Shown here: one piece after another, positions 27,052-39,932 of the stretch
Position numbering within the stretch: position 1 is the first letter of the stretch
Layout: each line of letters begins with the position of its first letter
Source of the DNA: Spirochaeta thermophila DSM 6192
GTDB lineage: Bacteria; Spirochaetota; Spirochaetia; Winmispirales; Winmispiraceae
DNA length: 64,000 bases
Reading direction: 5' to 3'
NCBI RefSeq assembly: GCF_000147075.1
Contig: NC_014484.1
Coordinates: 2,249,501-2,313,500, forward strand
Position numbers and translations under genes: made by a program
Notes under the pieces: generated by a model
Told to the model about the DNA's origin: nothing
The model's database searches: none
The model's input: the letters and a program-made list of their open reading frames with translations, nothing else

Positions 27052-27073
27052 GGAGGGGGCGTACGCCCCCTCC
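27052..27073 (-). terminator. Terminator of the GH5 cellulase gene
   Basis: Stem GGAGGGGGC/GCCCCCTCC with a 4-nt loop; on the minus strand it is followed by TTTTCTT. Confidence 0.8.
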
Positions 27074-27099: not shown

Positions 27100-27351
27100 T
27101 CACTTTATCTCCACATGTCCCCACGAGACGCCGCTCTTGTAGTGGATGTACCAGTAGCCGTCCGAGGCAGCAGGGATCTGGTGTTGTGCCACCCACACGT
27201 TGGTATAGTCCGTCCCGTTAATCTCCAGCAGATCCAGGTTCCACGAGTTGACGTACCTGCTCCAGTCGTTCGGATCCGTGGAGAACTGGTCGGTCTTCCA
27301 GTAGTACTCACCAGCCCCATCGTAGCTGAAGGGAAGCGCGATCTCGGTGTA
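27100..27351 (-). repeat. CBM64-coding module, copy 1
   Basis: Codes 83 residues from YTEIALPFSYDG to WGHVEIK. It is close to copies 2-4 at the DNA level; see the mosaic finding for which parts match which copy. Confidence 0.9.
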
Positions 27352-28725
27352 CTCCCCGGAAGGTGTGGGAGTGGCGGTGGGGGTCGGAGTCGGCGTGGGA
27401 GTGGGGGTCGGTGTGGGAGTGGGCGTCGCTGTGGGAGTTGGTGTGGGAGTTGGAGTAGGCGTCGGCGTAGGAGTGGGTGTGGGCGTGGGAGTAGGTGTCG
27501 GCGTGCCGGTGGGCGTGGGTGTGGCCGTAGGCTGCGGCGGATTGGCCAGATAGGGCCTGATGAGGTTGTACTTCGCCTCGTTCACCGTCACCCAGTCGTC
27601 CTTGAGGATCCCCCCTGTATCCCCAGAGTTGGGATTCCAGGACCAAAACGTCCACGATGCCTTGTCCCCCACATAGGCCATGAAGGTCGTGAACCACTGG
27701 TAGGCCACCGAGGAGGGATCAGCCGCAGACGCCTCTTTGATGCCGAACTCCCCTATGAGCACAGGGGCGATGTTCTCCTTGTAGATGAACCAGAAGTGCT
27801 CATCCCAGATCGCAGGCATGTTGTCAGGAAAGGTAGGATCGCTGAACCAGGACTGGTTGTAGACCTCGGGTCCATACTCATGAGGGGAGTAGATGAGGTT
27901 CTCCGCAGGGATGGAGGTGATGGGATAGTCCCTCACGCCTTTGAGATTGCCGCCCCACCAGTAGGTATCGCCCTGATACTCCTCTACCCCTTCCACGATG
28001 ATGTAGAGATTCGGGTTCTCCGCGAGGATGGCCGCAGCACACCGCTCGGCAGCTGCCTTCCAGTCGGTATCGCCGTACTCGGGGAGGGTGTATCCCCACG
28101 TAGCCGGCGGCTTCATCCCGGTCCCAGTGTTCCCGTGCGGCTCGTTGTTGAGATCGGCCCCTATCACATTGGGGTAGTTCTTATACCGACGCACCATCAT
28201 CACCCAGTCCGAGATCCACCTCTCCTCAGGATACTCGTCGGTATACCAGAGGGTTTCGTTCATATAGCCATCAGCGGCACGGGAGTGGTTGTCGAGGATC
28301 ACGTAGAGGCCGAGACGGTTGGCCTCCTCTATGATCTTGTCAAGGACCTCAAGGGAGGAAAGCCCTTCGAGATCCAGGTTGAGTCCCTGCTCCCCGGTGT
28401 AGGGATCCACACCCGAGGGATTAATCTGAATGCTGTTCGGTGCCTTGTCTATCATCTCGTTGGCCCACGGGATTCTGATACAGTTGAACCCGAGATCCGC
28501 TATCTGCTTGAGCATGGACTTGTAATCCCTGGCCCAGAGCCCGTGCACCACATGGTTGCCGGTCTCGAACCCGAACCAGTTCACGCCGGTGAGTCTCCCT
28601 ACCCGGAGCTCCGTAGCCCGTGCGGCCGTCCCTCCCTTCCCCGACACATCGAGGAACGGAAGCGAACACCCCAGCGTGATGAGGAACACCAAAAGGCTAA
28701 GAAGGATCGTCCGTAGGTATTTCAT
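27100..28725 (-). CDS. GH5 endoglucanase with CBM64, lipoprotein
   Basis: Secreted cellulase of 541 residues. The lipobox ITLGC gives lipidation at Cys20. A GH5 TIM barrel covers about residues 45-392, with acid/base Glu195 in NNEP and nucleophile Glu326 in GEFG. A Pro-Thr linker (about 398-455) leads to CBM64 (459-541), whose aromatic residues bind crystalline cellulose. GGAGGG precedes the ATG. It is the last of four cellulase genes with the same module design. Lipidation would keep the enzyme on the cell surface if it is exported past the outer membrane. Confidence 0.93.
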   Translation of the reverse strand: MKYLRTILLSLLVFLITLGCSLPFLDVSGKGGTAARATELRVGRLTGVNWFGFETGNHVVHGLWARDYKSMLKQIADLGFNCIRIPWANEMIDKAPNSIQINPSGVDPYTGEQGLNLDLEGLSSLEVLDKIIEEANRLGLYVILDNHSRAADGYMNETLWYTDEYPEERWISDWVMMVRRYKNYPNVIGADLNNEPHGNTGTGMKPPATWGYTLPEYGDTDWKAAAERCAAAILAENPNLYIIVEGVEEYQGDTYWWGGNLKGVRDYPITSIPAENLIYSPHEYGPEVYNQSWFSDPTFPDNMPAIWDEHFWFIYKENIAPVLIGEFGIKEASAADPSSVAYQWFTTFMAYVGDKASWTFWSWNPNSGDTGGILKDDWVTVNEAKYNLIRPYLANPPQPTATPTPTGTPTPTPTPTPTPTPTPTPTPTPTPTATPTPTPTPTPTPTPTPTATPTPSGEYTEIALPFSYDGAGEYYWKTDQFSTDPNDWSRYVNSWNLDLLEINGTDYTNVWVAQHQIPAASDGYWYIHYKSGVSWGHVEIK

Positions 28726-28752
28726 CGCAACCCTCCATACATGGACATATAA

Positions 28753-28781
28753 GAGGGGGCGGTGGGGACCACCACCCCCTC
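28753..28781 (-). terminator. Hairpin after the first GH9 cellulase gene
   Basis: Nearly perfect stem GGGGG-C-GGTGG/CCACC-A-CCCCC closed by GGA, in the 68-bp gap before the GH5 gene. On the minus strand only TTATAT follows, so it may attenuate or protect mRNA instead of fully terminating. Confidence 0.6.
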
Positions 28782-28793
28782 GGGGTCAAACCT

Positions 28794-29045
28794 CTACTTT
28801 ATCTCCACGTGGCTCCACGGATAGGAGCCCTTGTAGTGGATGTACCAGTACCCGTCCGAGGCAGGCGTGATCTGGTGTTGTGCCACCCACACGTTGGTAT
28901 AGTCCGTCCCGTTAATCTCCAGCAGATCCAGGTTCCACGAGTTGACGTACCTGCTCCAGTCGTTCGGATCCGTGGAGAACTGGTCGGTCTTCCAGTAGTA
29001 CTCACCCGCCCCATCGTAGGTGAAGGGAAGGGCGATCGCGGTGTA
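28794..29045 (-). repeat. CBM64-coding module, copy 2
   Basis: Codes [12 protein letters not shown] to WSHVEIK, 83 residues, at the end of the first GH9 gene. Confidence 0.9.
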
Positions 29046-31211
29046 CTCACCGGAAGGTGTGGGACTCGGCGTGGGAGTCGGAGTAGTCGTCGGAGTGGGC
29101 GTGGGAGTAGGTGTCGGCGTAGGAGTTGGTGTGGGTGTGGGAGTCGGAGTAGGAGTTGATGTGGGTGTGGGAGTCGGAGTAGGCGTCGGAGTCGGTGTGG
29201 GAGTGGGCGTCGGTGTCGGCGTGCTGGTGGGCGTGGGTGTGGGAGTAGGCTGGGACCCATCAGGCTCCACGCCGAAGATGAGGGTGGTGCCGTCGTAGAC
29301 CGGGATATTGGGCGTCTTGGTGATCTCGCTTGAACTCTGAGGAAGTCCCTGGTAGGAAGGATCATTCGTCGGATCCCAGAAGCTGGTCCCGCTGGGAGCG
29401 GAGATCCTCAACTGGACTTCACCCGCATACTCGCTCTGCCCACCGGGATAGATCTGCGTCCCGTCGTTGAACTTCACCTCGACATAGTAGATATCTCCGC
29501 TGTAGTGCACCGGCCCTGTGATGGTAGCGGGAAATTCCACATAGTTGGTGCTGATGGTGATATCGTCCACGGTGTACCCTGCTGCAAAGACCTCGGAGAG
29601 ATCGATGTAGTACCTGAAGCGCAGGTCTTCGATCACCCTTGCAGGCCATGCCGACCTGTTGTTCACCAGGACCTTCACCTCGGTGTAGTTGCTCCCTGAA
29701 GCATTGAGGCAGGCCTCGGTGAAGAACTCATCATCTTCGTAGTGGGTACGCGGCTCAGGCGGCGGGAAGTCTGCGAGCGGCTGCCCACCGTAGAGCTGGT
29801 ACATCTTTGCGAGGGCTCCGACGAACCCCGCGTTGTAGTCGCACGCCACCTCGTTCGTCTGGTAATTGCTTATGTCGTCGGTGTAGTTCCCGCTCTGATC
29901 CGGCCCACCCACGAGCGCCCCGTAGAGGATGTGCCTATGATAGGGAGGAACACTCTGGCTGTCGGCCCACGAACCGTGGGAGGTTCTGTGGTGAGGATGC
30001 TGAGGCGCATTCTCGCCGAATCCTACCACATAGCTCCCGTTCCGTTCGTTCATACCGAGGGCGTAGTTGATCTGTTTCTCGGCAAACTCACGATACACCT
30101 GTGCCTTCTGAGGATCTGCGCCCGACCAGTCGGAATACACAAAGGCGAGGAAGGCCGCCGTAGTGGCGTATCGCAAACTCCCCCACTGATCGAGCCAGGC
30201 AAGACCACCGGGAGTGTACCCCTTGGCACCGTCCACCCACCAGTCGAGGTGCATGTGGATGAAATCGATGTACTCCTGTTTTCCTGTGAGCTTTGCGAGG
30301 AGGAGGAGTCCGCCGTAGTGGACATCGTCCCAGCAGTGACCCCACTGATACTCGATATCCTCGGTCTGACCTTGTCGGTTGAGGAGGGGTACGTAGCTCT
30401 CAGCCTTGGTGAGGTATGTACTATCACCCGTGGCGATGTAGAGCCAGATCGCAGCCCACATGAGCTCGTCGATGGGACCGCTCCAGGAATTGTAGTAACC
30501 CGAAGCTGCGGTATAGTTGTCGTCGTTCCTGTCCTCGTCCGCGCGCGCAAAGAGCTGCTCCGCCTTCTGGAGATACACAGTATCGCCGAAGATGTAGTAA
30601 CCGAGGGCCAGGGCAGCCGCAGTCTGCGCCATCACCGCAGAGAGGCCGTGGCTCGCAGAGTAGGCCGGACGGTTCCCCGCCTGCTGTTCGAGGTGGATCA
30701 CCTCGACCGGACCCCACCAGCTGTGATCGTTCCCGCCGTCTCCGATCTGGTAGATGTAGGTGTTCCCATCCCAGCAGTTGGCCAGGTAGTCGAGGGTGAA
30801 CTTCACGTTCCGCTTGAGGATCTCCAGCTGGCCCGCATCGGCAAGGGCATCGGCGTACTCATAGATGGCCCACTGGAGCATGCTCGCGGTGTAGGCCATG
30901 GGAAGGTTGAACTTCACGTGGTCACCGGCATCGTACCAGCCACCGAGTACCGCATCCTGCATGGTGGCATCGCCGCGCCACTCTACGCGGTTCCACTCGG
31001 GAAGGGGACCGGCCTGCTGGGCCTCATAGAAGTAGATGGCCTTCTGGAGCGCCTCTCCATAGTTGAAGTGGCCTCCCGCTTGGGCTACCCCTCGGGAGAC
31101 AGCCTTTGCACCTTTCACCTCTCCTTCAGGAGAGAAAAAGGCACACGAGGCGAGCAGGAGTACTCCCCCCGTAAGGAGGAGACCCAAAAATCTAAAAAAT
31201 CTCTGCTTCAT
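28794..31211 (-). CDS. GH9 cellulase with CBM3 and CBM64, lipoprotein
   Basis: Secreted cellulase of 805 residues. Lipobox LLASC with Cys23. The GH9 (alpha/alpha)6 barrel covers about residues 48-480: nucleophile-side DAGD at 94-97, the PHHRTSHG motif at 406-413 and acid Glu454 in [14 protein letters not shown]3 follows at about 492-650, probably the family 3c type that guides a chain into the GH9 site and makes the enzyme processive. Then a Thr-Pro linker and CBM64 (723-805). It has its own promoter at 31254-31281. Confidence 0.93.
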
Positions 31212-31237
31212 ATAAAACCTCCAAAATCTCTACTTTG

Positions 31238-31281
31238 CCCTAGGGCGTCTTTTATTATAGCATGCTGCTTGGTGTCGTAAA
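31238..31281 (-). promoter_or_regulatory. Promoter of the first GH9 gene with palindrome at the start site
   Basis: Minus strand: TTTACG (31276-31281), 16 nt, consensus TATAAT (31254-31259). A perfect 10-bp palindrome GCCCTAGGGC (31238-31247) sits where transcription should start, a good place for a repressor. Confidence 0.6.
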
Positions 31282-31300
31282 TAAACCAAATGGGTGATAT

Positions 31301-31327
31301 AAGGAGGGAGGCACCGCCTCCCTCCTT
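31301..31327 (-). terminator. Terminator of the second GH9 cellulase gene
   Basis: Perfect 12-bp stem AAGGAGGGAGGC/GCCTCCCTCCTT with ACC loop just after the stop codon. The following T tract is minimal. Confidence 0.75.
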
Positions 31328-31332
31328 AGCCC

Positions 31333-31584
31333 TCACTGTATCTCCACGTGGCCCCACGAGACGCTACTCTTGTAGTGGATGTACCAGTAGCCGTCCGAGG
31401 CAGCAGGGATCTGGTGCTGCGCCACCCACACGTTGGTATAGTCCGTCCCGTTGATCTCCAGCAGGTCCAGGTTCCAGGAATTCACGTACCTGCTCCAGTC
31501 GTTCGGATCCGTGGAGAACTGATCGGTCTTCCAGTAGTACTCACCCGCCCCATCGTAGGTGAAGGGAAGGGCGATCGCGGTGTA
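31333..31584 (-). repeat. CBM64-coding module, copy 3
   Basis: Codes [12 protein letters not shown] to WGHVEIQ, 83 residues, at the end of the second GH9 gene. Confidence 0.9.
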
Positions 31585-33621
31585 CTCCCCGGAAGGGGTG
31601 GGAGTAGGCGTGGGAGTGGGCGTGGGTGTTGGAGTGGGTGTGGGAGTCGGAGTAGGAGTCGTGGTCGCCGTGGGAGTAGGTGTCGGCGTGCTCGCCCCAC
31701 CTTTTGGTGGTTCCACACCAAAGATCAGCTCTCCATTTCTGTAGACGGGGATGTACTCTGTCATCACATCCGGCTCTGCTGAGGGGAGCCCCTGGAACGA
31801 ATAGTCGTTCGTAGGATCCCACACCGAGGCATTGTAGCAGGCGAGGGCGAACTGGAACTCCACCTTTCCATAGAGCTTTGAACCGGGCCAGCTCGCCTCC
31901 ACATAGTAGATGTGGTTGGCCTCGTCCCACGGCTGAATTTCAGAGAGGGTCCCATTTGCCGGTCCATAGTAGACCGAGGCGGTCACATCCTCCACGGTAT
32001 ACCCGGCATCGTAGAGCTCGGAGAGGTCGAAGAAGTACCTGAAGGAGAGTCCTGTCTCCCAGTGAGGAGGAAGGAGCGAGTCATTGTGGATGTAGGCCTT
32101 GATGACCGTGGCCTGATTCGTGCTCTCGTAGACATAGGCGCTCACAAAGTAGGGGACATGATCCTCAGGCTCGATGCCGGGCGTGGGTTCCGGGGTCTGT
32201 CCTGCGCCGTAGTACTTGACTATACCGGCAAGGGCACCCACGAATCCCGCATTGTAGTCAATTGCCACCTCGGAGTGGTCGTACTGCTCTATGTCGTCGA
32301 CATACTCGTCGTTCATGTCAGGTCCACCCACAAGGGCCCCATAGAGGAGGTGCTTCTCGGGATCCTTCTTGGACTCGTTCGCAGGAGGAGCCTCCAGCCG
32401 GCCACTCGCTGCCCTGTGGTGCGGGAACTTGGGGTAGTTCTCTCCAAACCCCACCTCATAGGAGAGCCCTGCGGGGTTATCGCCCAGGATGTAGTCGATC
32501 TGTGACTTGGCAAAATCGAGGTAGGCCTCGTCATGAGAGACCTTGTCATAGTAGACGAGGGCGAGCATCGCCTCGGCCGCGGCATATCGGAGCACTCCCC
32601 AGGAGTTGAGGTAGCAGAGTCCCCCTGGGGTGCGCGGTATATCGTTCATCCAGTAGTTGAGGTTCCACTCAGCAATCTGTCTATAGAGCGGTCTGTCACT
32701 GATCTCCGAAAGCTTGACGAATACCCCACCCCATACATCATCCCAGCAGTGGGTCCAGCTGTTGTTGTATCCATTCTGTTCGTTTATGCCCTTCTCCTCC
32801 AGAAACCCCTCCACATCCTGCATGTAGGACTCATCCCCAGTGGCGATGTAGAGCCAGATCGCCCCCCAGGTGAGCTCATCCAGATAGCCGGAAGATCCGT
32901 AGAACCCGCCGCTCTCGCTCAACCCGCGATAGGTCTTTCCGAACTCGTAGAGGCTTTGCGCAGCATCGAGGCACTGCTGGGCATAGGAGGGATCAACATC
33001 CTGGTAGTTGAGGTACATGAGGGCCAGGGCCGCCGCAGTCCCACCTGCGATATCCGAGGCAGGGGTCTCAGGCGTAGCCACATAGAGCGCAGGCCGATCG
33101 GTGTCCTGAAGCTCCGGAGGCCCCCAGTAGCTGTGATCGACTGTACCGTCACCCACCTGATAGTAAAACGTCGTGGGATTGGGGTAACACTTGAGGAAAT
33201 AGTCGGTGAAGTGCTTGAGGATCTTGAGGATGTACTGATCCTGGCCTGTCTCAACGAAGACATCCTTGAACTCGTAGTAGGCCCAGCCAAGGGTAGAGGC
33301 GGCATAGGCCTGAGGGAGTCCGAACTTTACGTGGTCCCCGGCGTCGTGGAACCCCCCCGTGAGGTCGAGCCCCACATCGGCCCCATCCTCCCAGTGACAG
33401 GGGCCACGCCACGCGAGGCGATTCTCCCCTGCATCAGGACCACACCAGTTCGCCTCGTAGAAGAGGATGGACTTTGCAAAGGCATCCACATAGTTGAACG
33501 AAGCTGCAGCACGCGAACGAACACCGGAAGAGCCCATCTCCCCCTCAAAGAACACCCCACAGGAGGCAAAGAGGAGGAGGAAGGCCCCCAGCATACCAAT
33601 GACGGTGACACACCGTTTCAT
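31333..33621 (-). CDS. Second GH9 cellulase with CBM3 and CBM64, lipoprotein
   Basis: Secreted cellulase of 762 residues with lipobox LFASC (Cys21). GH9 domain about residues 42-475, with DAGD at 93-96, PHHRAASG and acid Glu in SEVAIDYNAGF. CBM3 (about 490-640) resembles family 3c, and CBM64 is at 680-762. It shares design with the 28794 gene but is clearly divergent in the catalytic domain, so the pair may act on different chain ends or regions. The ATG follows GGAGGG. No promoter is evident in the 58-bp gap upstream, so it may be transcribed with the GH12 gene. Confidence 0.93.
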   Translation of the reverse strand: MKRCVTVIGMLGAFLLLFASCGVFFEGEMGSSGVRSRAAASFNYVDAFAKSILFYEANWCGPDAGENRLAWRGPCHWEDGADVGLDLTGGFHDAGDHVKFGLPQAYAASTLGWAYYEFKDVFVETGQDQYILKILKHFTDYFLKCYPNPTTFYYQVGDGTVDHSYWGPPELQDTDRPALYVATPETPASDIAGGTAAALALMYLNYQDVDPSYAQQCLDAAQSLYEFGKTYRGLSESGGFYGSSGYLDELTWGAIWLYIATGDESYMQDVEGFLEEKGINEQNGYNNSWTHCWDDVWGGVFVKLSEISDRPLYRQIAEWNLNYWMNDIPRTPGGLCYLNSWGVLRYAAAEAMLALVYYDKVSHDEAYLDFAKSQIDYILGDNPAGLSYEVGFGENYPKFPHHRAASGRLEAPPANESKKDPEKHLLYGALVGGPDMNDEYVDDIEQYDHSEVAIDYNAGFVGALAGIVKYYGAGQTPEPTPGIEPEDHVPYFVSAYVYESTNQATVIKAYIHNDSLLPPHWETGLSFRYFFDLSELYDAGYTVEDVTASVYYGPANGTLSEIQPWDEANHIYYVEASWPGSKLYGKVEFQFALACYNASVWDPTNDYSFQGLPSAEPDVMTEYIPVYRNGELIFGVEPPKGGASTPTPTPTATTTPTPTPTPTPTPTPTPTPTPTPSGEYTAIALPFTYDGAGEYYWKTDQFSTDPNDWSRYVNSWNLDLLEINGTDYTNVWVAQHQIPAASDGYWYIHYKSSVSWGHVEIQ

Positions 33622-33645
33622 ACAACCCTCCTTAAGAAAGAATCA

Positions 33646-33669
33646 GGGGAAGGGAAGACCCCCTTCCCC
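33646..33669 (-). terminator. Hairpin after the GH12 cellulase gene
   Basis: Perfect 9-bp stem GGGGAAGGG/CCCTTCCCC with a 6-nt loop in the gap before the second GH9 gene; only CTGATTCTTTCTT follows on the minus strand. Confidence 0.6.
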
Positions 33670-33679
33670 CTTGTCTGCG

Positions 33680-33931
33680 TTACTTTATCTCCACGTGGCT
33701 CCACGGATAGGAGCCCTTGTAGTGGATGTACCAGTACCCGTCAGAGGCAGGCGTGATCTGGTGCTGCGCCACCCACACGTTGGTATAGTCCGTCCCGTTG
33801 ATCTCCAGCAGGTCCAGGTTCCAGGAATTCACGTACCTGCTCCAGTCGTTCGGATCCGTGGAGAACTGATCGGTCTTCCAGTAGTACTCACCCGCCCCAT
33901 CGTAGCTGAAGGGAAGCGCGATCTCGGTGTA
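33680..33931 (-). repeat. CBM64-coding module, copy 4
   Basis: Codes YTEIALPFSYDG to WSHVEIK, 83 residues, at the end of the GH12 gene. Confidence 0.9.
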
Positions 33932-34996
33932 CTGCCCGGAAGGGGTGGGAGTAGGCGTGGGAGTGGCAGTCGGCGTGGATGTAGGTGTTGGAGTCGGTGT
34001 GGGCGTGGCGGTGGGGGTCGGAGTCGGCGTAGGAGTGGGGGTCGTCCCTCCACCACCTCCGAGGATGGGAGTGGTGGTGTACTCGAGCTGGAGGTCGTAC
34101 ACATGCCATGCGAGCTGCGCGTTGAGATAGTCGGGCGTCCCGAACTCAGTCCCCAGCTCCACACTGGTGAAGTAGAGATTCTCCCAGTCGGCCCTGTTGG
34201 AGAGGGATCGTGCCTTCTGGATGAAGGGAGCCCAGTTGAAGCGCACCGTTCCCTCACTTATGGGAGTGGTGGGCCTGAAGGCGAAGTACTCCCATCCTCC
34301 GTTCCCTACTGCATCCGACCGCCACACCTCGAACGTCATGTCCCGCATCTGACCGTTCACCTCAATAGGTACTGTGAGCGTATCAACCTGGGAACCTGCT
34401 CCTTGGAGGCCGTAGTAGTTGAACCAGATCATGATCTCGACCTCGTCCGAACGCACGTCCCTTCCCCGGCTGGTATCCCTGGTGAGCCAGGTCTCGAACG
34501 GGAAATTGAAGGGGAGCTGGGGATCGAGGCGCTGAATCGAAAAGTCGACCGTGGTGTAGAAGTCGTTGAGCTCGGAGAGCCGCCTGGGCAGAGGTACCGG
34601 CCCGTCCTGTGCAGGACCCACGGTATTCCAGATCTTGATCCCGTACCATATCTCGGGATAGGCGTGGACCCAACCGGACGGATCCTCCTGTTGGATGTTG
34701 GAGAGATCGATCTGCACGTCGAGATCGAACCCATCCGCATCGTCGAACGTCATGGTGACGCTTCCGGAACCTCCCACCACATTCCAGAGGTTAGGCTCAA
34801 TCACCCAGTTCGTCTGACCATCCCCGTCGGAATCGATAGTGGCCGAGGGATACCGGTTGCTACTCGTGGCGGTGACCGTAGTCACTGCTCGAGAGAGACC
34901 TGCGCGTTCCCCTGCCACATCTACGAGGCCAAGGGAACACCCAAGAAGGCTCAGAATGAGGACACTTAGGCATCCTCCATAGTAGAGCTGTCTCAT
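33680..34996 (-). CDS. GH12 endoglucanase with CBM64, lipoprotein
   Basis: Secreted endoglucanase of 438 residues with lipobox LLGC (Cys20). The GH12 jelly-roll covers about residues 40-325; the nucleophile strand is recognisable as DEVEIMIWFNYYG, with the expected Glu, and PEIWYGIKIW is another GH12 landmark. A short Thr-Pro linker precedes CBM64 (356-438). The ATG at 34996 follows GGGGAGG; the frame extends 11 codons further upstream without a ribosome site. First gene of the cellulase cluster. The promoter is not obvious. Confidence 0.88.
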   Translation of the reverse strand: MRQLYYGGCLSVLILSLLGCSLGLVDVAGERAGLSRAVTTVTATSSNRYPSATIDSDGDGQTNWVIEPNLWNVVGGSGSVTMTFDDADGFDLDVQIDLSNIQQEDPSGWVHAYPEIWYGIKIWNTVGPAQDGPVPLPRRLSELNDFYTTVDFSIQRLDPQLPFNFPFETWLTRDTSRGRDVRSDEVEIMIWFNYYGLQGAGSQVDTLTVPIEVNGQMRDMTFEVWRSDAVGNGGWEYFAFRPTTPISEGTVRFNWAPFIQKARSLSNRADWENLYFTSVELGTEFGTPDYLNAQLAWHVYDLQLEYTTTPILGGGGGTTPTPTPTPTPTATPTPTPTPTSTPTATPTPTPTPSGQYTEIALPFSYDGAGEYYWKTDQFSTDPNDWSRYVNSWNLDLLEINGTDYTNVWVAQHQITPASDGYWYIHYKGSYPWSHVEIK

Positions 34997-35112
34997 AGAA
35001 CACCTCCCCACGATGGTTTGTTGTATCATGTTACCATCCGGACGGGATAAAGAGAATAAACTTCGAGGGTGAGGGGCTAAACTTTCGGGTTGATCGCCTA
35101 TGAGTCATTGTC

Positions 35113-37007: not shown

Positions 37008-38331
37008 ATGGCACGTATAGCACAGAAATCACTTTTTTGCTGGCACGATGTAGAAGAATTGGGGGATTTACATCGGCTTCGGCTGGTGTTGGAGAACCTG
37101 CCGGATGAGGAACTGATGCAGCAGCTTGAACAGAGGCGAGGGAGAGGCCGGAATGAGTATCCGGTACGGGCGATGTGGAACTCGCTCGTTGCGGGGATCG
37201 TGTTTCAGCACCCGAGCATCGAGCAGCTACGCCGGGAGCTCTTGCGGAACGGGCAGTTGAGGGACCTGTGTGGATTTGATCCTACCCGGGGAAGCGATGC
37301 GGTACCCAGTGCCAGCGCGTACAGCCGGTTTCTTTCCACCTTGAGGAAGCGGACGATCCGAACGGCACTGGTGAAGGTGTGTACAGCCCTGGTGGATCAG
37401 TGCTACCGGGAGCTGCCTGGATTCGGGCGGCGGCTGGGAGCCGATGGGAAGGGGATAGCAAGTGTTGCCCGTCGAAGGGGGAAGGGTGCCGGAGACCGGC
37501 GAGGGGAGCACGATGCGGACTGGGGGGTGTCATGAGTATGTGTATCAGAATGAACGGGGGGAGGTGCAGAAGTCGGTAAAGAAATGGTTTGGGTTTACGG
37601 TGCACCTCCTTGCGGATACAGAGTATGAACTGCCGGTGGCCTTTACGGTGAGTCGGGCCTCAAAGCACGAGGTGCCGGTGATGCGAAAGCTGATTCGGTC
37701 CCTGGATCGCCATCGGCCGCATATACTCAAGGCGGCAGAAGTGTTCACGGCCGACCGGGGCTATGATGATGGCACGTTGATAGATCTGTTGTGGCACGAG
37801 CACCGGATCAAACCGGTCATCGATATTCGTAATGCATGGAAAGATGGAGAGGAGACGAAGCTGGTGGCAGGGACACCGAACGTGGTGTATGACTACCAGG
37901 GGACGGTGAGTTGTGTCTGTATGGCCACGGGGACGCAGCGGGAGATGGCCTACCGGGGGTTTGAAGAAAAGCGGGGAACGTTGAAGTACGGCTGTCCTGC
38001 GGTGCACTATGGGTATGAGTGTGCAGGCAAAGCCTCCTGTCCCCTGGCCTCCTGTATCCGGATCCCCCTCTCCACGGACCGCAGAGTCTTCACGCCTATC
38101 GCCCGATCTTCGTATCGGTGGAAGCGGGAGTATGCCAAGCGAACGGCCTTGGAGCGGATCCACAGCCGGCTGGATCGAAGCTTTAGCCTGGAACTCCACA
38201 CGATCCGGGGGCAGGAGAAACTCTCGGTTCACCTTACGCTGGTGTTCTCTGTCATGAGTGCCCTTGCCCTGGGACGAGTGCGAGAGAACCAGCCGAACCA
38301 GATGCGCTCCCTGGTCAGGCCTGCGGCCTAA
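37008..38331 (+). pseudogene. DDE transposase (IS4/IS5 superfamily), frameshifted
   Basis: The N-terminal part (37008-37535) ends shortly after DADWGV. The rest (to 38331) continues in another frame with the expected next segment, KKWFGFTVHLLADTEYELP. The change of frame falls at a run of six G (37522-37527), as if one G were gained. Catalytic positions are split: first Asp in GADGKG, second in TADRGYDDG and Glu in RTALERIHSRLDRSF. About 440 residues in total would be normal. Programmed slippage on the G run cannot be excluded. Confidence 0.82.
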
Positions 38332-38593: not shown

Positions 38594-39932
38594 GGCCTGT
38601 AACATCGAGTGTTGAAAAACGCGGGAAAAAAAGATAAGGGGTATCTCCCACCACCCTAATCCTTTATTTCAAGGAGGAGATACCCCATGAAGCGCGGCAA
38701 GACACGCGCACTGACTGAGACACAGTATACCCTCTCTGGCCTCATGAAGCAAGTGGAGGCCCAACTCCGGGAGGAGGTACGCCACACCTACAAGACGTAC
38801 CTGGAGCACCTCCTTGAGGCACTGAGAGAGGAGGCAGTAGGGCGACCGCGATATGCACGAGGGGAGGCTGAGAAGCCACCGTACTACCGGTACGGCTACA
38901 GGAAGTGGAAGAGTGTGCAGACCCCATGGGGGCCGATCGAGGAGGTACGCGTGCCCCGGATCCGCACCGGCGGGGGGAAGGAGGTGAAGTTGGTCGCCTA
39001 TGAGCAGAGGCTCGTGGCCCTCACCGAGCAGCTCCTCCTTGGGTATGTGGGAGGGATGAGCGCGCGGAGATATGCCATCCTGTTACGGGAGTGAGGGATA
39101 GGCGAGGCCCACCCTCAGACGATCTTACGGATCATAAAGCGTCTTCGTGAGGAGAAGGAGCGGTGGCGGAGGCGGCCGCTTAGTGGGGTGAAGGCGCTCG
39201 TGCTGGATGGGGTGTGGGGAAAGCTGAGGGGAAAAGGGAGGAGGGGGCTGGTGGTCTTGAGTGCCGTGGGGGTGAAGGAGGACGGGTCTCATGAGCTCCT
39301 CGACTGGGTCGTTGCGGAGCGGGAGGAGCGAGCGAGCTACGAGCGACTGCTTACCAGGCTCTATGAGCGGGGGCTTCATGAGGTGGAGCTGGTGGTGGCC
39401 GATGAGGCTGAGGGGATCTGGCAGGCCGTGGAGACGGTGTATCCTGAGGCGAAGAAGCAGGTATGCCTCTGGCACCTTGAGCGGACCCTTGAGCGGACGC
39501 TCCTCAATGAACTGAGAGGTAAGGAGAAGAGGCACGTACAGGAGATGCGGCGGGCATTTCGGGATGCCTACCGGAAGCTTTTGGCGGCACGAGAGAAGGA
39601 GGAGGCGGAGAAGGCCCTTGAGGGGTTCTGGAAGGAGTGGGGAGCCCGTGCGCCGCGGATGAGTGCCGCACTCCTGTGGCGGAAGGACCGACTGTTCTCC
39701 TATCTGGAGCTGCCCTATGAGTGGAAGGAGAAGGTGAGGACGAACGCCCTTGTGGAGAACCTCTTTCGGCACATGAGGACATTTCTTCGACGGTATCCTG
39801 GGTATATGAGCCGTGCCCATGCGGATGAGGCGGTAGGCCTCTACGTGGTGGGCATGCAGATACACACGCAGTGTGGGAGACGCACCCCTTATCAGCTCCA
39901 GCTCAATTTCAACACTCCTCCTTGACAGTGCC
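38594..39932 (+). mobile_element. IS256-family insertion sequence, transposase interrupted by a stop codon
   Basis: A 1339-bp element, a normal IS256 size, flanked by 9-bp direct repeats. The ends are imperfect inverted repeats: the left begins GGCCTGTAACATCGAGTG and the right, read inward, begins GGCACTGTCAAGGAGGAG; both contain GAGTGTTGAAA about 13-17 bp in. It carries one mutator-type transposase gene. It is inserted at or next to the right end of the first insertion sequence, so it is the younger of the two. Confidence 0.8.
38687..39925 (+). pseudogene. IS256-family (mutator type) transposase with internal TGA
   Basis: One reading frame of about 412 codons broken only by TGA at 39092-39094. 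The N-terminal part has the zinc-finger-like PYYRYGYRKWKSVQTPWGPI region. After the stop the same frame continues with the DDE core: VLDGVWG, the VVADEAEGIWQAV segment, the C-x2-H-type VCLWHLERT, and Glu near TNALVENLFRHM. A strong ribosome site (AAGGAGGAG) precedes the start. A single nonsense mutation is the simplest reading. Confidence 0.85.

Follow-up and report, generated by a model that had tools for sequence, protein, structure and literature searches.

Four consecutive cellulase genes of Spirochaeta thermophila DSM 6192 carry C-terminal CBM64 modules whose coding DNA forms a mosaic of three blocks, with the four copies falling into different pairs in each block. This very likely reflects recurrent ectopic, non-reciprocal homologous recombination (gene conversion), leading to concerted evolution that is restricted to one domain. 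The genes lie on the minus strand at 27100-35029 of the window (the whole 64,000-nucleotide stretch of DNA that was analysed), and every one of them has a 3' threonine-proline linker and a CBM64 module:

27100..28725, minus strand: GH5 cellulase gene, 541 aa, with C-terminal (TP)n linker and CBM64 (copy 1)
28794..31211, minus strand: GH9-CBM3-linker-CBM64 gene, 805 aa (copy 2)
31333..33621, minus strand: GH9-CBM3-linker-CBM64 gene, 762 aa (copy 3)
33680..35029, minus strand: GH12-linker-CBM64 gene, 449 aa (copy 4)
27103-27351, minus strand: CBM64 module copy 1, 249 bp
28797-29045, minus strand: CBM64 module copy 2, 249 bp
31336-31584, minus strand: CBM64 module copy 3, 249 bp
33683-33931, minus strand: CBM64 module copy 4, 249 bp

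All four modules match the CBM64 profile (PF18666) over its full length (1-74) at 121.9-124.7 bits, the curated cut-off being 25 bits, and the copy 1 module is identical, residue for residue, to PDB chain 5e9p. Compared with copy 1, the last 300 bp are 91% identical in copy 2, 91% in copy 3, and 89% in copy 4. The genome (a single contig of 2,472,645 bp) contains seven CBM64 copies, four of which are in the cluster. The catalytic domains had been called unrelated in the original prediction; this holds in that GH5 and GH12 belong to families different from GH9, but the two GH9 regions (copies 2 and 3), both followed by a CBM3, are distant paralogues (54% DNA and 45% protein identity). Strong terminator-like hairpins are found 3' of the GH5, GH9 (copy 2), and GH12 genes (window positions 27052-27073, 28753-28781, and 33645-33670, respectively), and the GH9 gene of copy 3 is followed by a palindrome similar to these hairpins; in the region, 17 terminator-like sites were observed vs 3.7 expected. 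The cluster genes may be transcribed separately. Two transposase-like ORFs are located a few kb from the cluster (window positions 37462-38331 and 39188-39925).

In module coordinates, position 1 is the first base of the 249 bp, and sites were counted through the stop codon. When every variable column was listed, 23 two-against-two sites were found, and these form three unbroken and mutually incompatible blocks with no exception inside any block, namely, a start block that joins copies 1 and 4 against copies 2 and 3 (here written 14/23, and likewise for the other pairings) and in this genome rests on three sites (8, 15, and 26), a 12/34 middle block of eight sites (63, 102, 105, 108, 120, 132, 165, and 168), and a 13/24 end block of 12 sites (178, 180, 181, 195, 217, 221, 223-226, 232, and 251). 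The probability of three unbroken blocks under random ordering is 2.7e-8 for the 23 sites, and 2.2e-7 when one site per codon is taken. In window coordinates, the blocks are as follows:

27313..27351, minus strand: copy 1 start block, module positions 1-39, pairs with copy 4
27178..27312, minus strand: copy 1 middle block, positions 40-174, identical to copy 2 (0/135 differences)
27100..27177, minus strand: copy 1 end block, pairs with copy 3, closest to the orthologue in the congeneric genome G001 (3/75)
29007..29045, minus strand: copy 2 start block, identical to copy 3
28872..29006, minus strand: copy 2 middle block, identical to copy 1
28794..28871, minus strand: copy 2 end block, pairs with copy 4 (1/75 differences)
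31546..31584, minus strand: copy 3 start block, identical to copy 2
31411..31545, minus strand: copy 3 middle block, identical to copy 4 (0/135 differences)
31333..31410, minus strand: copy 3 end block, pairs with copy 1 (5/75 differences)
33893..33931, minus strand: copy 4 start block, pairs with copy 1, equally close to the orthologue (1/39)
33758..33892, minus strand: copy 4 middle block, identical to copy 3
33680..33757, minus strand: copy 4 end block, pairs with copy 2

The three different pairings along the four modules, as well as the motifs and the two sets of silent bases quoted for them in the original prediction, are thus present as described. Its statement that copies 2 and 4 agree at the C-terminus and copies 1 and 3 resemble each other is right as a pattern, with one base difference remaining in the former pair and five in the latter. 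The middle-block sites are synonymous in all eight cases, and the end-block sites are mostly protein-changing. In the linker, the single clean site at -12 is of the 12/34 type, which suggests another switch immediately 5' of the start block.

A single tree was rejected by the PHI test for the cluster modules of this genome (p = 0.0005, the floor of 2000 permutations) and likewise for the G001 cluster (p 0.0005). In a run-length test with 10,000 column shuffles, the identity runs between copies 1-2, 2-4, and 3-4 exceeded those in nearly all shuffles (p 0.0003-0.0009). For the AU tests, the cluster modules were aligned with ten further modules of this genome and G001, and every segment rejected the trees of the other two segments and the full-length tree (all p-AU < 0.007, values that are somewhat generous as the segment limits were taken from the same data; the order test given above is independent of that choice). 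With the end segment, AU rejects the full-length tree (0.006), but the SH test does not (0.077). The PHI, run-length, and AU tests agree that, as had been proposed, no single tree explains the pairings, and the phylogenetic incompatibility along the sequence that is taken as a sign of interlocus gene conversion is found here beyond chance.

The layers of the mosaic can be dated by an outgroup comparison with synonymous counts per segment, as suggested in the original prediction and made here with the congener G001. There, these four genes are likewise present, ordered and oriented as in the window and all with CBM64. Between the two genomes, the catalytic regions of the cluster are 86-93% identical, with dS of 0.32, 0.33, 0.62, and 0.77 for the orthologous pairs. 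In the middle block, orthologous modules differ by 10, 9, 14, and 7 bases, vs 0/135 within the pairs 1/2 and 3/4. At the synonymous sites of this block, both pairs differ at 0/26, copies across the divide at 8, and orthologues at 4-9; even at the lowest orthologous catalytic dS, the probability of finding no difference is 4e-4 per pair. Within this bounded tract, paralogues are thus more alike than orthologues, silent sites included. The 12/34 pairing was not found in the G001 cluster. For six of the eight sites in the middle block (102, 105, 108, 132, 165, and 168), one pair has a base that is absent from the four G001 cluster copies, and those at 102, 105, and 132 are also absent from the six other modules of the two genomes; similarly, A178 is common to copies 2 and 4 and occurs in no other module of the two genomes. 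Most simply, the pair-specific middle bases would have arisen in this lineage and then reached two loci, and they may be read as a direct mark of copying. Because the congener lacks the pairing and the shared bases are particular to the cluster of this genome, the exchange in the middle postdates the split.

The other two pairings have a longer history. In the start block, copies 2 and 3 are identical here and 11-12 bases away from their orthologues, and the same pair differs at 3/39 in G001; the two copies have therefore been homogenised separately in each genome. The 14/23 start pairing itself is also present in G001, and the end-block sites 217, 221, 223-225, and 232 are the same in both genomes, so that the core of the 13/24 pairing is inherited. 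Both pairings are thus partly older than the split, with a part of the mosaic inherited and only later reinforced. A mosaic produced by repeated recombination, as proposed in the original prediction, is hence supported, with the refinement that the congener, too, has the start pairing and the core of the end pairing. Flanking markers were not exchanged: the 3' flanks of copies 1 and 4 match those of their G001 orthologues, and since gene order and orientation are equal in both genomes, the exchange left the flanks in place.

Exchange was predicted to occur within the cluster, which is correct for the cluster itself and is too narrow as a limit. A module at genome position 1,936,098 (L009), 347 kb from copy 4, differs in its middle from its orthologue at 11/132 positions and from the cluster copies at 33-34. 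Its last 75 bases show six differences to copy 4 and 18 to its own orthologue, and its tail contains 50 consecutive bp identical to copy 4, over which its own orthologue has 12 mismatches. As a module 347 kb away took part, exchange is not limited to the cluster. The cluster-type tail of this module covers its last 56 bp, and its catalytic part is GH10-like by eye.

Similarly, the module had been proposed to move or be homogenised alone. This holds in so far as neither the catalytic nor the CBM3 domains took part; in two other genomes, however, conversion also included linker DNA, and in one of these it reached into the 3' untranslated DNA. In G001, the GH5 and GH12 copies also share adjoining linker DNA. 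In a third genome of the same family (G002), three modules on GH9, GH5, and GH9 enzymes share an identical tract that extends from the linker up to around module position 180. In two of them, the identity continues across the stop codon and for another 43 bp, the hairpin included, save for one 3-bp deletion; after these 43 bp, their similarity is lost abruptly. Two G002 modules (L020 and L026) end in PSSH at a point where other modules have a tryptophan (PWSH, SWGH, or AWAH), i.e., the fourth cellulose-binding tryptophan has become a serine in both, inside the shared converted tract. Thus, a possibly weakening change has been spread as well in G002. No homogenisation was found among the nine CBM64 copies of a more distant spirochaete (G035), which are diverged from each other (50-70% DNA identity), and these rule out homogenisation as a property of CBM64 as such. 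They also indicate that high starting similarity is probably needed for exchange, and perhaps a repetitive linker as well. A further CBM64 gene region (L015/L025; at 1,356,227 in this genome, G000, and at 1,437,668 in G001) shows about 96-99% identity between the two genomes over most of ~3 kb, which is far above the values for the catalytic regions of the cluster, and a recent transfer between lineages is therefore likely.

In the proposed mechanism, the CBM64-coding 3' ends, which are direct repeats of ~90% identity, would serve as substrates for homologous recombination of the RecA type. Short stretches, from tens of bases up to a whole module with part of the (TP)n linker, would be copied between the copies without exchange of the flanks. 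Repeated events after the split from the congener would have homogenised the module middle in pairs (1 with 2, and 3 with 4), and other events, some of them before the split, would account for the pairings of the start (1 with 4, and 2 with 3) and of the end (1 with 3, and 2 with 4). The catalytic and CBM3 domains would be excluded from exchange by too great a divergence, and the unique DNA past each stop codon would usually set the 3' limit of the tracts. Resolution presumably took place without crossover, because the gene order is unchanged, and crossing over between direct repeats would have led to loss or duplication of the gene that separates them.

Several other origins of the mosaic were considered. 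An assembly or consensus artefact that mixes near-identical repeats is very improbable: repeats of ~300 bp at ~90% identity can mislead a short-read consensus, but the independent genomes G001 and G002 have mosaics of their own, and the copy 1 module equals an independently studied protein chain exactly, a match that says nothing about silent bases. Stepwise duplication of the module (domain shuffling) without later exchange, with the mosaic stemming from different donor modules, would fit the start and part of the end pairings, as these are common to the congener and hence some of the pattern is old. It predicts one tree, however, and this is rejected for each segment; moreover, CBM64 is found on all four genes in both genomes, so the modules predate the split, whereas the pairwise-identical middle exists only here. 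This account is also highly unlikely. Parallel change at the same positions by selection or codon bias, without exchange of DNA, could draw on the strong conservation of the CBM64 protein sequence among the modules, but it is scarcely conceivable for a perfect two-against-two block whose sites are all synonymous, and in which the two pairs use different synonyms of the same codons and thus follow no common optimum.

A donor from outside the genome is unlikely too, though less so than the foregoing. Here, incoming DNA of another strain would have recombined ectopically, its fragments pairing with the wrong locus, and DNA imported in this way from an unsampled strain would give the same pattern; the high identity of the L015/L025 region suggests that lineages do exchange DNA. 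Nevertheless, the middle haplotypes of this genome are found in no G001 cluster copy, and the required donors exist in the same genome, a few kb away. For the gene conversion favoured here, the analysis demonstrates the mosaic, its age relative to the split, its confinement to the module, the preserved gene order, and one long-range event; we infer an origin internal to the genome, non-reciprocal transfer, and dependence on RecA.

The binding face of copy 1 has four coplanar tryptophans, W488, W495, W511, and W535 (PMC7867066). By sequence, the four binding tryptophans are present in each of the four copies; by position, W488, W495, and W511 fall in the middle block and W535 in the end block, which means that conversion keeps most of the binding face uniform and distributes two versions of the last strand among the enzymes. 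These two variants around the fourth tryptophan, KGSYPWSH-like and KS.VSWGH, are separate in both genomes; selection may maintain them, or they may simply be located close to where the homology ends, a place at which tracts tend to stop. That CBM64 is a shuffled cassette under selection, in which the three core tryptophans are kept uniform and tails are passed between catalytic types to tune the seating on cellulose, is a doubtful idea.

The process itself, gene conversion, is known; the present case stands out by its clarity and by affecting a domain instead of a gene. It shares with concerted evolution of the tufA/tufB type (Wang and Chen 2018, PMC6053082) that paralogues are closer than orthologues, at silent sites too, and that flanks stay in place. 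That survey dealt with full-length genes, whereas the unit here is an 83-residue accessory domain in enzymes of different families, and the CBM64 copies remain mosaic rather than uniform. The glucan degradation locus of Caldicellulosiruptor is likewise a cluster of multimodular cellulases with repeated regions, for which diversification by recombination after duplication has been proposed (PMC7142884); there, repeats of ~1 kb are mentioned and the proposal deals with how the locus expanded, whereas here the gene order is static and fine-scale patches move. The CBM64 of S. thermophila has been the subject of previous work (PDB 5e9p and 6ffq; PMC7867066), in which the module of copy 1 was studied for structure and binding, not for the evolution of the copies. 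No earlier report of conversion in CBM64 was found in the literature searched, which covered the main CBM64 papers incompletely. The analysis adds relative dates for the layers, an exchange over long range, similar cases in two further genomes, and one genome in which homogenisation is absent. The cluster provides a clean natural case of domain-scale conversion, in which a small accessory module is homogenised and reshuffled across different or long-diverged catalytic parts; phylogenies that rest on CBM64 alone or on complete multimodular cellulases will mislead for this reason. The tryptophan loss shared by two G002 enzymes implies that possibly harmful changes, and not just useful ones, can spread by conversion.

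CBM64 copies close to the spirochaete type were also seen in a Brevinematales MAG and in a MAG labelled Actinomycetota (L050/L053, L051/L054, and L055); the linkers of the Brevinematales copies are serine-rich instead of TP.
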